A model generated the notes under the pieces. That model searched no databases, was not told where the DNA came from, and saw only the letters and a program-made list of their open reading frames with translations. From Halobacteriovorax sp. HLS (lineage in GTDB: Bacteria; Bdellovibrionota; Bacteriovoracia; Bacteriovoracales; Bacteriovoracaceae), in the NCBI RefSeq assembly GCF_004006665.1, contig NZ_QOCL01000009.1, positions 248,001-312,000 on the forward strand: 64,000 nucleotides of DNA, read 5' to 3'. The translations under genes were made by a program, and so were the position numbers. Each line of letters opens with the position of its first letter. Position 1 is the first letter of the stretch. This document shows, piece by piece, positions 40,905-47,418 of this stretch.

Positions 40905-41828
40905 ATGTACAATATTCAATTGGCCTCATCTTTAAGCGGAATTAATGTTCACAATTTAAGAGCATGGGAAAGAAGATATAGTGCTGTCTCACCTGAGAGG
41001 GATTCTGTTGGTAGAAGACTATATTCAAAAGAACACGTAGAAAAATTATATCTATTAAATCAACTTGTTAAAGAAGGAACGGCAATAAGGCATATTGCAA
41101 GTAATACAACTGAAGAATTAATTTCGATGGCCGAGTCAAAGGGGCTTGAAGTTGATCTTTCATTTGAGTCTAAGCCAAACGATGAACAAGAATTAGAACT
41201 AAGTTACAATGCTGTTAAGTTAGCATTGAATTTTAAGAAGTTTGATATCATCTCTCATGAGCTTAATAAGGTTTTAGAGAATTACGATCTTAGAAAAGTT
41301 GTATTTAAAATGCTTATTCCGAGTCTATTTCTTCTTAGAGATAAGCTAAATGCTGGTGAAATTTCTCTAGAGGAGAAGCAAACAGTCGTTACTATAATTA
41401 AATACTATCTAAGAAAGAAAGTGTTTCAAAATAATGTAGACTTAACTAAAGCGAGTTACCTGGTAGCAGCTCCAAAAGGAGATACTTATGAGTTTCAAAC
41501 TTTAATAGCTTCTCTATTATTAGGGGCGCATAATAAGCAAGTTATTTATCTTGGAGCAAGTGTTGAGGCAGATGTGATCGCTGAGACAATGGCGGCTACA
41601 GGTTCTGAGAACCTTATTGTTTGGGGATCATGTCAGTGGGATCAAACAAAGGGTGCACAGTTAGGAGAGTATTTCCAAAGCTTAAGTGCTCAAGCTCCAA
41701 AGGGTGCAAAGATTACAGTTGCGTGTAATGGACCTGCTCCTTATGATTTCTTTATCAATGACTTAGAAATATCTTCAGTGAAGAGTTTTGAGCAGTTTGA
41801 TCATAAGTTACAGAGTAATACCTTATAG
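40905..41828 (+). CDS. MerR-type regulator of the CarH/MlrA group with a B12-binding-like domain
   Basis: 307 residues. N-terminal MerR helix-turn-helix with LRAWERRYSAVSPERD and GRRLYSKEHVEKL. A helical cap (about 85-180) and a Rossmann B12-binding-like domain (about 185-300; APKGDTYEFQTLIASLLLGA, VIYLGASVEADVI) follow. The usual lower-ligand motif (E/DxHxxG, His to cobalt) reads GDTYEFQ here, with Tyr in place of His, and the cap W-x9-EH motif is missing (LRDKLNAGEISLEEKQ). It therefore probably does not bind cobalamin as CarH does. ATG has AAGGAAAG upstream. Target genes are unknown; the repeats just upstream suggest autoregulation. Confidence 0.88.
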   Translation: MYNIQLASSLSGINVHNLRAWERRYSAVSPERDSVGRRLYSKEHVEKLYLLNQLVKEGTAIRHIASNTTEELISMAESKGLEVDLSFESKPNDEQELELSYNAVKLALNFKKFDIISHELNKVLENYDLRKVVFKMLIPSLFLLRDKLNAGEISLEEKQTVVTIIKYYLRKKVFQNNVDLTKASYLVAAPKGDTYEFQTLIASLLLGAHNKQVIYLGASVEADVIAETMAATGSENLIVWGSCQWDQTKGAQLGEYFQSLSAQAPKGAKITVACNGPAPYDFFINDLEISSVKSFEQFDHKLQSNTL

Positions 41829-42722
41829 ACAAATTTGGGATGCTGATAAAGAGTATCCCATTTCTTCACTGTACTTGTTAAAATGATGAGAGAAAGAGTT
41901 CCAAGTTATTTGGTTCTCTTTCAACTGACAGCTTGCAGAAGCTAACTTTTCTAATTCCTCTTCTGAAAGGTTTAATCCTTTAATACTTTGAAAGAAACTA
42001 ATGATTGTGTTTGGTTCAGAGTCTTTGATTTGATTGGTAAACTCTTCAATAATATACGACCTATTAGGATCATTCTTATTCATTAGTAATGTTTTATAGA
42101 CAATGCTCTTTGAGCCTCCTTGAAGCCCTCTTGTTTTCTTAAGAAAGTCATCAAATTCATCTTGAGTAGGGGAGCTTTTCAGAAAGAGCTCACTTGTATT
42201 AACTAAAATATCTTCATTATTGTAGGAAAGAAAATCTAAGAAGGGGATATCCTCTTGAAGGTCATCATTGCTTTTATTTAAAATTAAAAGTGATCTTCCT
42301 AGAAGTTTATGCGCAGGAGTTTGATTTTCATCAAAATACCCATCAGCATCAGGCTTAGTGTCACAAAAGTCTTTCTTCAAACAGTTGTTAAGTTCAGAAC
42401 TTAAGTTAATGAGATAGTTCTTAAGCTCAGTTGCTGAGAAAGACTTTATTATTTCTTCTGGTTTTTTTCTATAGTCATTTAATGAGTTAAAGTACTCACT
42501 ATTAGATATCGATTTTTCAATTTGTTTTGCTAGATGTTTAATTTCACTATTTAGGATTTCCTCCCCTAAGTGAGCTTCTTTCTTTAACTTCTTTTCAATA
42601 TGTGGAGTCTGCGATCTAGTCGCTTTGGGAGAGTTTAGCTCTTGATCAGTTTTTAAGAGAAGGTAGAAGACTACTGCAACAGCAGAGATACCAATAAAGA
42701 AAATAAGTGCATTTTTTTTCAT
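41823..42722 (-). CDS. Membrane-anchored helical protein with Cx5C motif (partner A')
   Basis: 299 residues. One N-terminal hydrophobic helix (5-24), not a classical cleaved signal, then an acidic/basic linker and a helical domain of the HEAT-like kind. A Cx5C motif (C114 to C120, NNCLKKDFCDTKPD) matches the Cx5C at the corresponding place in the protein at 45815. Probably anchored in the inner membrane with its bulk in the periplasm. It lies 48 bases downstream of the lysozyme-fold enzyme gene on the same strand. Function unknown: partner, inhibitor or scaffold of that enzyme are possibilities. Confidence 0.72.
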   Translation of the reverse strand: MKKNALIFFIGISAVAVVFYLLLKTDQELNSPKATRSQTPHIEKKLKKEAHLGEEILNSEIKHLAKQIEKSISNSEYFNSLNDYRKKPEEIIKSFSATELKNYLINLSSELNNCLKKDFCDTKPDADGYFDENQTPAHKLLGRSLLILNKSNDDLQEDIPFLDFLSYNNEDILVNTSELFLKSSPTQDEFDDFLKKTRGLQGGSKSIVYKTLLMNKNDPNRSYIIEEFTNQIKDSEPNTIISFFQSIKGLNLSEEELEKLASASCQLKENQITWNSFSHHFNKYSEEMGYSLSASQICL

Positions 42723-42770
42723 AATATTAAACTTTGGGAATAGAGTGAATTCTCTATTCCCAGTTAGTAA

Positions 42771-43886
42771 TTATTCTAAAATCTTTTCTATACTTATTCT
42801 ACTATTCTTTTGTTCTTTAAAGTTCGTTACGATCTCATCGTATGCGGCCTTTACTTCTGGATTCATACTGAAAGAGATACTATCAAAGACTCCTATTTTC
42901 TCTTGATTTGGAAAATCTAAAACCTTGTCTAAGTTTCTTTTAAATCCAGTATCATGCGAAGCATATGGCCCGTTAGTGTCTGCAAAACGGCAAGTTTGCC
43001 CTAAGTTACCTGAGTTATATTTTCCTGCCCAAGTTCCTCTAATTAATTTTTCATAATCAATTTGAGTTCTATCATTTCTTGATCTTAAGCAACTCATCCA
43101 AGTTTTCCACTTTTTCTTTGAAGTTCTTCCATTGGCATATAGCCTTACTTTCTTAGAACTTCTCCAGTTATAAAGAACTTTTTTGTATCCACTCATTAAG
43201 AAGTTTAGTCCATAGCTCATCGTTTTACGAAGTGACTTATATTGCTCTTGTGCTAAGAAAATATCATAGTGCCAACGAATACTTAATTGCATTGCTCCTA
43301 AGTCAGATCCATCTCCACCTCTAATAATTTGACGGATAACTTGATCGTCTTTTAAAGAGTCACAATCTGGAAAGAATGAATTACCAGGAGTTTTAAAGTA
43401 TTGTGTAAAATTCTTAAATGTTGGTCCTTTCAATTTTGCTTCGGCCAACTCTTCTGCAGTGTATTTTGCGTCAAGTTTTTCTTGAGTATAAGCAAAGAGG
43501 ATATTTCCACTATTTGCGTGTTGGTTACAGAGACCTGGCTGGTCATTAACCTCTCTAACATGCATATAAAGTCCTTCATGAAGAGGAACTGTCAGCGCCA
43601 GAGTTAAGAATCCGTAATATGCTTGAGTATTTCCTTCTTCGAGTAGGAACTTTGCTCTTTTATGTGCTTCTTGAATTAGTGTTTTCGCAAATTCACTACC
43701 GTATTGTAATTTGGCAACTTCAGTATTTCTAAATAATGGACCATCTAGCTCCGCTGTTGGGTTAATAGTCGTCATCATTTTATCTAGTACTTTGACTCTT
43801 GGTATCTCTTCTAGATTTGCATAAGTATTCAAACTTAAAACACCAATGAGCATACTGCTACAAATAGTCTTACTAAAAAGCTTCAT
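42771..43886 (-). CDS. Secreted lysozyme-fold (GH23-like) protein (enzyme A)
   Basis: 371 residues, signal peptide 1-23. Lytic-transglycosylase-like landmarks are visible: E104 in PLHEGLY (catalytic Glu position), DLGAMQ (195-200, the G-x-MQ motif), RWHYD, and KYNSGN (289-294, matching the A-YNxG motif). About 80 residues, with three cysteines, are inserted between the Glu and the GAMQ motif. It aligns stretch by stretch with the divergent neighbour at 44031 (GGD..G.Q..RWH and the YNxG region). Expected to cleave peptidoglycan glycan strands in the periplasm or in prey. Called by motif; the exact family needs a profile search. Confidence 0.75.
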   Translation of the reverse strand: MKLFSKTICSSMLIGVLSLNTYANLEEIPRVKVLDKMMTTINPTAELDGPLFRNTEVAKLQYGSEFAKTLIQEAHKRAKFLLEEGNTQAYYGFLTLALTVPLHEGLYMHVREVNDQPGLCNQHANSGNILFAYTQEKLDAKYTAEELAEAKLKGPTFKNFTQYFKTPGNSFFPDCDSLKDDQVIRQIIRGGDGSDLGAMQLSIRWHYDIFLAQEQYKSLRKTMSYGLNFLMSGYKKVLYNWRSSKKVRLYANGRTSKKKWKTWMSCLRSRNDRTQIDYEKLIRGTWAGKYNSGNLGQTCRFADTNGPYASHDTGFKRNLDKVLDFPNQEKIGVFDSISFSMNPEVKAAYDEIVTNFKEQKNSRISIEKILE

Positions 43887-44030
43887 TTCAACTCCTATGA
43901 TTCAAATTCTTGTGTTTTATATCGCATAGCGTCGATAAACTCTAGGAAAAACTTACGCGGTGTATTAATTTCAGTATCTAAGGTATTATTCAATATAATC
44001 AGACACTTATATAGCCCTTAGGAACGTAAT

Positions 44031-45818
44031 ATGTTTAAAGTTATTTTGTTTACAGTTTTTCTTACCTCTTTATTGACGCCAAAGGCCTCTGCCGCACCCG
44101 ATGACACTCCTGATTGGTGGAATTGTCCAAATAGAACTAGTGGGGACTGGGAATTCGGTAGGGCCCCTGATGTTTGTGATTTAGATAGTTTTATAGACCT
44201 AGGCTACGTTGAAGACGAATTTGAGAACTTCATCTTCGATGAAGATGCTTCTAGAGAAACCGAAACACATCGCTATATGAATAAGGTGTATTCACTTATA
44301 AAAGACGTAGCTAATTATTATATCGAAAAAAGAAATCCTCAAGCGTCAGCTGAAGAAGTTGAAACCTTTCTTCGCGCCTCATTTACGATTGGTCATCAAG
44401 AAAGTTTTTGGACTCACTATAGAAGATCGGGAAATGGTGATACGCAGCTGATGAGAAGTGGTGGTGACTATGGTCATGGTCACGGATTATTCCAAGTTGA
44501 TGACCGTTGGCACTTTCCAGCGGTGTTAGATGGTAGGGCCGCAAATATTGTAATGAATATGGTCTACTCTTTAGAAGAGTACTTTCACGCTTGGCAAACT
44601 GCACCTTCAACAAATTGTGCCACTGAGAGCGATTATATCTCTAGAGCAAGATCAGCTTATAGTGCTTATAACGGAGGCCTTAAGAGAATTTGTCGTTGGA
44701 CAAATCCAAATGATCGCTGGGCCAGAAATGATAAAGGGTGGTGGAGTAAGTATCAAAGAGTTGAGTGGGAGTCTTATGTTTCAGATACAGATTCTTCTTC
44801 AGGAATAGATATCGACTGTATAGTTCAAGGTAATGAAGGATGTAGAACAGATGTTGGTGACGATCCTAGTCCAGTTAGTGGTAAAATTTATAAAAACTCA
44901 ACTCAGCAGTTCTGTGCTTTTATAAATAGTTCATTTGAATGTGTAGAATCATTAAGAGATACAAGTTGTCTTGCAATAAAGGGTGGAGAAGATTTTAGTC
45001 GTTTTAGAGGCAGGTTTTCTAAGATGCCTACTGACTTTGAATCAGACTATCAATTTAATGTTCTTGATAAACACGAGCTTTGTCATAGTGAAGTTTCAAG
45101 TCTTTTTAATGTTGGAGAGTCAATTACTCTTGGAAAGAATATTAATCTTCGACTGACTCCTGGGGGAGCGTGGAAGGTTACAATTCCAAGAAATTCTGTG
45201 GTTCAAGTCTTAGACTTTGTTCTAAGTGATATCTTTGATCAGAAAAGGTTCTATAAAGTTAAGTACAAAGATTTTGTAGGATTTATCTATGCTGGTAATA
45301 AGCAGGACTTTACAGATTGGAGTAACCGAACACAACAAAAATCTATTGATCGTCTGATCGCCATGCGTGGAGATAAAGTTAAAGTAGAAAAGGAAGGCGG
45401 TGTCGCTGTTTATAACTCTGATGGAGATATTATTAGAGAGCTACCTGCTGGAGAAATTCTTACGGTAAGTTCTATTTCGATTGCTGGTGATATGAATAAT
45501 ATTGCTTATCAAGTTGGAAGCGATGCTTTTGTGAATGCTGGATATTCTGGTGAATTGCTAAATGCCCCTGAGTTCTTTAGTGTTATAAAAGAAGTAAGAA
45601 CTCCTATTAGAACCCTTGCTCAGTTAAGAAAGTCTACATGGTGGAAGAGGCTTAGAGTTTGCCCTTCAAAGAAATGCTCTAAAAGTTCAAGTATAAAAGG
45701 TCCTCGCTTATCTAGGAAAAAGTTCTACGTTATTGATAGTAAGGATAATTGGAATTTGATTGAGCAAAGTTCGAAAAAAGGTTGGATTGAATCTAAGTAT
45801 GTGAGGGTAGTAAAATGA
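44031..45818 (+). CDS. Secreted lysozyme-fold (GH23-like) enzyme with SH3-like repeats (enzyme B)
   Basis: 595 residues, signal peptide 1-21. Catalytic-domain motifs: E124 in TIGHQESFW, HGHGLFQ (149-155) before DDRWH, and AYNGG (212-216). Residues 255-345 are a cysteine-containing linker. The last 240 residues contain three SH3-like segments (about 360-425, 445-515 and 535-595; for example NINLRLTPGG and KKGWIESKYVRVV), which normally bind peptidoglycan. ATG has AGGAAC upstream. The stop overlaps the next gene's ATG (ATGA). It is the divergent homologue of the gene at 42771. Likely peptidoglycan cleavage during cell division, prey entry or prey exit. Confidence 0.82.
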   Translation: MFKVILFTVFLTSLLTPKASAAPDDTPDWWNCPNRTSGDWEFGRAPDVCDLDSFIDLGYVEDEFENFIFDEDASRETETHRYMNKVYSLIKDVANYYIEKRNPQASAEEVETFLRASFTIGHQESFWTHYRRSGNGDTQLMRSGGDYGHGHGLFQVDDRWHFPAVLDGRAANIVMNMVYSLEEYFHAWQTAPSTNCATESDYISRARSAYSAYNGGLKRICRWTNPNDRWARNDKGWWSKYQRVEWESYVSDTDSSSGIDIDCIVQGNEGCRTDVGDDPSPVSGKIYKNSTQQFCAFINSSFECVESLRDTSCLAIKGGEDFSRFRGRFSKMPTDFESDYQFNVLDKHELCHSEVSSLFNVGESITLGKNINLRLTPGGAWKVTIPRNSVVQVLDFVLSDIFDQKRFYKVKYKDFVGFIYAGNKQDFTDWSNRTQQKSIDRLIAMRGDKVKVEKEGGVAVYNSDGDIIRELPAGEILTVSSISIAGDMNNIAYQVGSDAFVNAGYSGELLNAPEFFSVIKEVRTPIRTLAQLRKSTWWKRLRVCPSKKCSKSSSIKGPRLSRKKFYVIDSKDNWNLIEQSSKKGWIESKYVRVVK

Positions 45819-46516
45819 AGAAATTAATTGTTCTCTCATTCATCCTCACAGGAGTATTACTTAGCTATTATAATAAAGATGCCTTAAAGCTTGCTACCAA
45901 ACTTAAAAGTAGAAGTATTGCTTCAAATCATTCTATCGATCCGAAATTTGAAGACCTTCTAAGTAAAAAGTCTAGAACAATAGATCACCTTAGGAGTTGT
46001 TTTGAAAGTCGAAGTTGTGGTTTTTCAAAAACAGACTCTAGGGCCTATGACCTAAATTTGGCACAAGCAATTAAAAGAGAGCTGAATCATTTATATGAAT
46101 TTGTTTTAGAAAATGAAATAGAGGATGATCGAATTTCTTCTTTAGCGAGAGGCTATTTGAAAATATCTGATGGGCACGTAAAGGAAGCTGCTTTAATGCT
46201 TTTGAGTACGCAGAAGCCGAGTTCAGAAAATTTAGAGTCTATTTTGGAACAAACAATTTCCTATCACTCTGCCCCTCTTGTTGAGCTAGCAATGATTGAA
46301 TTGTCGAAATATAAGACATCTGAGTGGCAAGAAAGAATTGATAATAACTTTATTGAAAACTTAAAAACTGGAAGTGTTATTGTTAGGCAGGTTTTAGCAA
46401 AGAATATAGCAACTTTTTTAAATGAAGAGAATCGCTTAAAGTACAAGTCTTTTATTAAAAATTATACAAGTGACTCAAAGGTTAGGAAGTTTATATTGGC
46501 CTCTCTTGAAGATTGA
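45815..46516 (+). CDS. Membrane-anchored helical protein with Cx5C motif (partner B')
   Basis: 233 residues. An N-terminal hydrophobic helix (3-19), then helical repeats resembling HEAT/ARM repeats. A Cx5C motif at C62-C68 (LRSCFESRSCGF) is followed by a DSRAYDLNLAQAI segment that parallels the stretch after the Cx5C of the protein at 41823. Translation is coupled to the lysozyme-like gene by a 4-base ATGA overlap. It probably stays anchored with a periplasmic body. Whether it binds, restrains or protects against the enzyme is unknown. Confidence 0.72.
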   Translation: MKKLIVLSFILTGVLLSYYNKDALKLATKLKSRSIASNHSIDPKFEDLLSKKSRTIDHLRSCFESRSCGFSKTDSRAYDLNLAQAIKRELNHLYEFVLENEIEDDRISSLARGYLKISDGHVKEAALMLLSTQKPSSENLESILEQTISYHSAPLVELAMIELSKYKTSEWQERIDNNFIENLKTGSVIVRQVLAKNIATFLNEENRLKYKSFIKNYTSDSKVRKFILASLED

Positions 46517-46530: not shown

Positions 46531-47418
46531 TTATTTTAAAATACAAGATTTATTAGCGTAAGAAAACTCTTTAATTTCATTAAGTGGAACAATAGAGATT
46601 CCATTTTTCTTAGCATCTCTTATAAAAATCTCTGATGCTTCAATACTTCTTTCATGAATATCATGCATTAACGCTACTCCACCACCAAATGGGTATTTAA
46701 TTTTATACTTCACCATTTTATACTTAGTGTTCCCAAATATTGTTCTCTTTACCTTGTGCTTATATGCCGTTCCACCTTTTACATGGGCCATTATATTATC
46801 AGAGATTTGTTGTGCCGTAATGGTTGGAACCCAGTCTGATGTATCAATATCCCAAAAGGCAAAATTGATACAGTTCTCACCATATAATTCATTTGAAACT
46901 TCTTTCATGGTATTAAAGTGATGGTAGAACTTATTAGAACCATACGCTCCGTATGGAAATCTATAGTAACTAGAGATTTGAGAAGAACCATACTTTGCTT
47001 TTAATTGCTCTAAAAGAAGAACAGATTTATATAGTTCTTCTTTGAACTCACTTTCTTCTTCGTGATTATTGTTTTCATGATCATGATCGTGACTTGCTAA
47101 GATATGTCCTTCATCCAAAATTCTTTCAATAATTGGCAAAGTCTTGTCAGTTATATTTTGTGTTAATACAAAGAAGGTCGCTTTTACATTTTCGCTTTTG
47201 AGAAGATCTAGCAATTTTGGAGTTCTTGTTTCGTGAGGACCATCATCATAAGTGAGGGCAACTTTATTAGAGCCTTTAAGTGACTTTGTTCTATATTGAT
47301 CAAAACCCACGTCAACATTTGGTCTATAAACTTGTTGCTCATTTGGAAATTGCTTTAAATTTACTGAGTGTACTTGTGCACTCAAAAGAATTGTACACAA
47401 TGTGATAAGTGGTTTCAT
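46531..47418 (-). CDS. Secreted polysaccharide deacetylase (NodB/CE4)
   Basis: 295 residues with signal peptide 1-18. CE4 motifs: TYDDGPHE (56-63; D58 and D59), HxxxH metal pair in ASHDHDHENN (H110, H114), the RFPYGAYG motif, DIDTSDW, and ALMHDIH. Peptidoglycan or chitin deacetylase is the likely activity. Bdellovibrio uses similar secreted deacetylases to mark prey wall, and a lysozyme there prefers deacetylated wall; the two lysozyme-fold enzymes lie immediately next to it in this window. Convergent with the gene at 45815. Confidence 0.93.
   Translation of the reverse strand: MKPLITLCTILLSAQVHSVNLKQFPNEQQVYRPNVDVGFDQYRTKSLKGSNKVALTYDDGPHETRTPKLLDLLKSENVKATFFVLTQNITDKTLPIIERILDEGHILASHDHDHENNNHEEESEFKEELYKSVLLLEQLKAKYGSSQISSYYRFPYGAYGSNKFYHHFNTMKEVSNELYGENCINFAFWDIDTSDWVPTITAQQISDNIMAHVKGGTAYKHKVKRTIFGNTKYKMVKYKIKYPFGGGVALMHDIHERSIEASEIFIRDAKKNGISIVPLNEIKEFSYANKSCILK

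Follow-up and report, generated by a model that had tools for sequence, protein, structure and literature searches.

Halobacteriovorax is a marine predatory bacterium that invades its prey, and a locus of Halobacteriovorax sp. HLS raises the question of what two small helical proteins, each encoded beside a secreted lysozyme-like enzyme, do for the cell that makes them. The window, by which we mean the whole 64,000-nucleotide stretch of DNA that was analysed, carries two divergent operons here, one on the minus strand comprising the enzyme E1 and its partner P1, and one on the plus strand comprising E2 and P2 (Table 1). The original prediction had placed four open reading frames at this locus, with E2 and P2 coupled by ATGA, and both the list of reading frames and the sequence bear this out: E2 and P2 overlap by these four bases, and E1 and P1 are spaced 48 bp apart. 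The divergent region presumably holds both promoters; promoter-like matches in a scan of its 144 bp did not rise above the level of shuffles.

Table 1. Features of the two divergent operons and their flanks, in window positions.
Feature	Position	Strand	Size or remark
MerR-type regulator	40905-41828		flanks the operon pair on one side
P1, partner of E1	41823-42722	-	299 aa
E1, secreted goose-type-lysozyme-like enzyme	42771-43886	-	371 aa
Intergenic region between the divergent operons	43887-44030		144 bp
E2, secreted goose-type-lysozyme-like enzyme with C-terminal SH3-like wall-binding region	44031-45818	+	595 aa
P2, partner of E2	45815-46516	+	233 aa
Secreted CE4 polysaccharide (peptidoglycan) deacetylase	46531-47418	-	Pfam Polysacc_deac_1, 2.7e-24

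As had been proposed, the two enzymes are homologous, their profiles matching at 98.2% by hhalign, and the profile alignment sets the proposed motifs opposite one another: E104 with E124, GAMQ-RWH with GLFQ-RWH, and KYNSG with AYNGG. The glutamate singled out as catalytic is invariant, in 22 of 22 E1 sequences and in all 30 of an E2 set that includes two distant relatives. In the latter, D146 is invariant alongside E124; in the E1 alignment (n = 22), whose key features are E104, D192, GAMQ, RWH and YNSG, D192 is conserved in at least 90%. The catalytic residues of goose-type lysozymes are E73, D86 and D97. E2 shares the glutamate and both aspartates with them, since its D146 and D157 are set on D86 and D97 of the goose enzyme (153l) in the printed alignment, whereas E1 has a serine at the place of D97. 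Accordingly, the catalytic signature of GH23, a glutamate with an aspartate pair in a GDxGxGxGLMQVD context, is found in E2 and in part in E1. When the E2 profile was searched against the PDB up to an E-value of 1, the sole enzyme matches were g-type lysozymes (best E 7e-4), the remainder being SH3-like domains and one weak, unrelated match; in Pfam, six of nine E2 members have an SH3_3 domain. No Pfam SLT/GH23, lysozyme or transglycosylase model matched the nine E2 or 22 E1 members at 0.01, and a distant enzyme relative, L129, alone comes near the SLT model (0.0012, below the cut-off). For this reason we call E1 and E2 related to GH23 and not members of it, and annotation pipelines based on Pfam would overlook them. 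Judged by these residues, E1 and E2 would hydrolyse as goose-type lysozymes do. They differ from the latter in their extra Cys-rich regions, with several cysteines conserved in the alignments of both families, in their SH3-like domains and in having a dedicated partner. Both carry N-terminal export signals on inspection of the sequence. Divergent E1-P pairs occur at L131:5465-8829, L277:4749-7707 and L119:4219-6875, with enzymes of 836, 713 and 629 aa, respectively; in the L119 and L131 enzymes the GxMQ motif reads GIMM and the glutamate is retained.

The partners, too, proved to be kin. The Cx5C element ascribed to each is real, C114 and C120 of P1 being invariant in an alignment of 22 and C62 and C68 of P2 at least 90% conserved over 31 sequences. 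A further pair of invariant cysteines in P1, C265/C298, is absent from P2 and had gone unremarked in the original prediction. In a pairwise HMM comparison, P1 and P2 matched at 96.1% (E 3.6e-9, score 69.3) with a wider P2 set, the first sets having given 91.7%. The profile alignment begins at Cx5C and is independent of the membrane helix. Against the score of 69.3, the best of 100 column-shuffled decoys reached 15.6 and the reversed alignment 15.5, and a control family of anchored ankyrin solenoids matched the two partners at just 4.8% and 1.6% by hhalign. A likeness owed merely to both being helical or anchored proteins is excluded by the shuffles, the reversal and the ankyrin control. Two candidate relatives, at L132 and L133, were discarded, one being a PilN-like gene of the neighbourhood and the other a generic protein of the HEAT kind.

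AlphaFold2 predicts for P1 (pLDDT 89.2) a transmembrane helix at residues 2-27, a disordered linker at about 30-46 and an all-alpha solenoid body, and for P2 (pLDDT 92.4) a transmembrane helix at residues 2-28, a linker and again an all-alpha solenoid body. Both proteins are thus predicted to be anchored in the inner membrane by the N-terminal helix. The P2 model matches ARM/HEAT chains with Z values of 12-13.9, and its top Foldseek matches include artificial HEAT-like alphaReps (prob 1.0, E about 0.05); for the P1 model Z reaches 9.6, and the matches listed are almost all alpha-solenoids. Pfam finds HEAT_2 weakly in two of 31 P2 members. Support for describing P1 and P2 as HEAT/ARM-like alpha-solenoids is moderate, because these Z values lie near the background for helical proteins. 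In three Halobacteriovorax species (L099, L101 and L102) the membrane helix of P1 contains a lipobox-like cysteine, and P1 may be lipidated there.

The arrangement of enzyme followed by its own partner on the same strand, as predicted for the window, recurs widely. In loci drawn from the family and the phylum (Bdellovibrionota), we counted 74 adjacent pairs, 43 of E1-P1 and 31 of E2-P2, a linkage far above chance. Cross pairs, E1-P2 or E2-P1, number zero among the 74; the L119 partner had best matched the P2 profile in a looser first search. Enzyme and partner are separated by -61 to 183 bp, with a 4-base overlap in 13 cases. Some ten pairs lie beyond the census, two of them confirmed and in GC-rich DNA (L247 and L248), one with a split E1 gene (L272) and seven taken from match coordinates. 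E1 is mostly basic and P1 acidic (median pI 8.6 and 5.3), and the contrast is weak for E2 and P2, whose pI values straddle 7 in 16 of the 31 pairs. The locus had been read as a duplicated unit. It does contain two homologous enzyme-partner units, but these are two old lineages and not the products of a local duplication, since E1-P1 and E2-P2 are each found apart from the other in many genomes and in many families. The layouts seen include head-to-head, tail-to-tail (L106) and unlinked, and a recent local duplication is excluded.

This distribution bears on one explanation of the partners, namely that they are scaffolds or localisation adaptors that position the enzymes to serve wall growth or division of the predator itself. 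There is a precedent in NlpI, a TPR solenoid lipoprotein that scaffolds peptidoglycan hydrolases (PMC7049810), and P1 and P2 likewise have folds of an interaction type. However, the gene of NlpI is unlinked to those of the many enzymes it serves, whereas here each enzyme type is linked to its own partner type and cross pairs are absent. The families also occur patchily, unlike a housekeeping function: of the 116 genomes searched, 22 have E1, and two of five genomes of the genus have E2-P2. We regard such a role as improbable. A tether, by which the partner would store an active but confined enzyme at the predator surface or time its release at prey exit, is very improbable. Tethering to the predator has been suggested for DslA (PMC7511926), and some E1 relatives bear a lipobox (L103, L104, L258 and L265); yet the E1 proteins with a lipobox still have a partner, and a partner whose predicted place is the inner membrane is ill suited to displaying an enzyme towards prey. 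Both adaptor and tether are less likely than either of the two readings to which we now turn, self-protection and assisted folding.

The latter is the main rival: the partner would be a steric chaperone of the Lif/LipH kind, folding the enzyme in the periplasm and releasing it for export. Lipase foldases have a characteristic gene order and a flexible linker. Secreted lipases have a membrane-anchored foldase (PMC7046727, PMC13381987), and the likeness is close, with a secreted enzyme gene followed by that of an inner-membrane-anchored helical protein, and with a transmembrane anchor, flexible linker and helical domain in the same anatomy. Lipase foldases are equally tightly linked to their enzymes, encoded downstream of them and anchored in the inner membrane, and these features weigh against self-protection to that extent. 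The several conserved cysteines of the enzymes would also suit a foldase, as would the presence of a partner for every enzyme of both subfamilies, none in the census lacking one. More distant relatives of the enzyme domain do lack a partner, however, in one distant family (L128-L130) and at L264, so the domain is evidently able to fold alone; L129, L130 and L264 start like lipoproteins, and L262 is an SH3 fragment only. The enzyme class differs from that of the lipases, and the fold predicted for P1 and P2 is a compact HEAT/ARM-like solenoid. Pfam Lipase_chap (PF03280) matched none of the 22 P1 and 31 P2 members at 0.01; the absence of Lif among the structural matches listed for the two models is in itself neutral as to a Lif fold.

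Orphan partners also speak against a foldase. The original prediction had tied the partners to their enzymes, and partners without an enzyme were found in just four intact cases (L120, L121, L127 and L276). At L127 (genome G015) the flanking genes match those of the sister genomes G059 and G182; the enzymes have been lost, and P2 alone remains. This P2 is 24-28% identical to those of the sisters, whereas the two sister proteins share 55% identity, and two flanking genes are 50-53% identical; such drift after enzyme loss implies that the constraint on the partner depends on the enzyme. The asymmetry of loss, with orphan partners and no orphan enzymes of either subfamily, rests on four loci and is statistically weak. 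The correlation of identities between enzymes and partners (0.74 and 0.53) does not discriminate between self-protection and folding. Taken together, we consider a foldase unlikely, if still the strongest competitor.

Self-protection, by contrast, finds its closest model in Bdellovibrio bacteriovorus, where the pair Bd3459/Bd3460 was demonstrated to serve it by the structure of the complex, by inhibition and by deletion, and where the gene of the guard, Bd3460, lies downstream of that of its enzyme (PMC4686830). Pairs of this type occur in the neighbourhood of ours. Census loci include a PBP4-like (DD-)endopeptidase in eight cases, and in L109, L274 and L278, all of one genus, an endopeptidase followed by an anchored ankyrin protein stands back to back with E1-P1. 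The best solved relatives of the L278 endopeptidase are Bd0816 and Bd3459 (PDB search, E 2.7e-26). The genome of the window itself encodes, on contig 12 (L286:1002-3245), a 440-aa endopeptidase matching Bd3459 at 4.1e-35, and 9 bp after it begins the gene of a 303-aa ankyrin protein, which has a membrane helix at its N-terminus; by sequence, this is a self-protection pair of the Bdellovibrio type in Halobacteriovorax. The predatory context and this neighbour, resembling Bd3459/Bd3460, favour protection over a generic partner and so lend support to the earlier suggestion of a partner that would bind or delay the enzyme or protect against it.

Other wall enzymes keep company with the pairs as well. 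CE4 deacetylases and YkuD L,D-transpeptidases each adjoin in 15 census loci, and the deacetylase of the window is a probable functional associate of the enzyme-partner units. In four clusters (L136, L141, L146 and L275), an L,D-transpeptidase and an endopeptidase occur together with E1-P1; a deacetylase is also present in L136, L141 and L146, and a 3D-domain protein in L141 and L146. These clusters look like islands for remodelling the prey wall. From such genome context, E1 and E2 would be used on prey.

We therefore think it probable, though well short of certain, that P1 and P2 are self-protection (immunity) proteins of a non-ankyrin kind for prey-wall enzymes. The operon linkage, the homology of both parts, the anchoring, the solenoid fold and the catalytic residues were all computed; binding, inhibition and use against prey would complete the following scheme. 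Carrying a signal peptide, the enzyme would cross the predator's inner membrane, equipped to cut the glycan strands of peptidoglycan by a goose-type lysozyme active site. The solenoid partner, which its N-terminal helix and flexible linker would fasten to that membrane, would meet the enzyme as it enters the predator periplasm, bind it one to one and keep it from acting on the wall of the predator itself until it has reached the prey or bdelloplast. A lysozyme that has to cross the periplasm of the predator that makes it needs restraint, and a dedicated solenoid partner at the inner membrane fits the part of guard best. As the catalytic glutamate is never lost, the partners accompany enzymes that look active, and in all 74 pairs the partner gene lies directly downstream of that of a putatively predatory peptidoglycan hydrolase. 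Solenoids are known immunity folds, as in Imm-HEAT and Imm-Ank (PMC3482391) and in the ankyrin protein Bd3460.

Set beside the systems known from Bdellovibrio, the pairs are distinct. They share with Bd3459/Bd0816 and Bd3460 a predator wall enzyme with its partner gene downstream, and a solenoid partner that is exported or membrane-anchored (anchored in the homologues seen here). However, Bd3459 and Bd0816 are DD-endopeptidases and E1 and E2 are lysozyme-like, and Bd3460 is an ankyrin protein, whereas P1 and P2 are HEAT/ARM-like with cysteine pairs and, by the ankyrin control above, of unrelated profile. With no Pfam Ank match in 22 P1 and 31 P2 members at 0.01, P1 and P2 lie outside the Bd3460 ankyrin family. 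DslA (Bd0314) is a Bdellovibrio lysozyme specific for deacetylated wall, which is transcribed alone and from which the predator protects itself by wall marking (PMC7511926). Like E1 and E2, it is a lysozyme-superfamily enzyme of a periplasmic predator, and a CE4 deacetylase often adjoins E1 and E2; unlike them, it stands alone, with wall marking as protection, and it was not matched by the E1 or E2 profiles in the PDB search. At L264:4748-5728, in another family of the phylum, a partner-less lipoprotein lysozyme-like enzyme is possibly a relative of DslA. We found no paper on lysozyme inhibitors in Bacteriovorax in the open-licence literature, and such partners are not mentioned in the part considered of a comparative genomics paper.

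In the literature considered, avoidance of self-digestion is known in Bdellovibrio in two ways, by one ankyrin inhibitor and by chemical marking of the prey wall. If the partners are guards, they would constitute a second class of protective protein, broader than the first and shared by several families, and would explain how strong lysozymes can be used on the Bacteriovorax side of the predators. More tentatively, and with the balance tipped slightly against it, each class of prey-wall enzyme may have separately evolved an anchored solenoid guard, ankyrin for the endopeptidases and a HEAT-like family for the goose-type lysozymes, the latter being an undescribed family of g-type-lysozyme inhibitors across Bdellovibrionota. 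The pairs are also a possible source of novel lysozyme inhibitors and wall-cutting enzymes.
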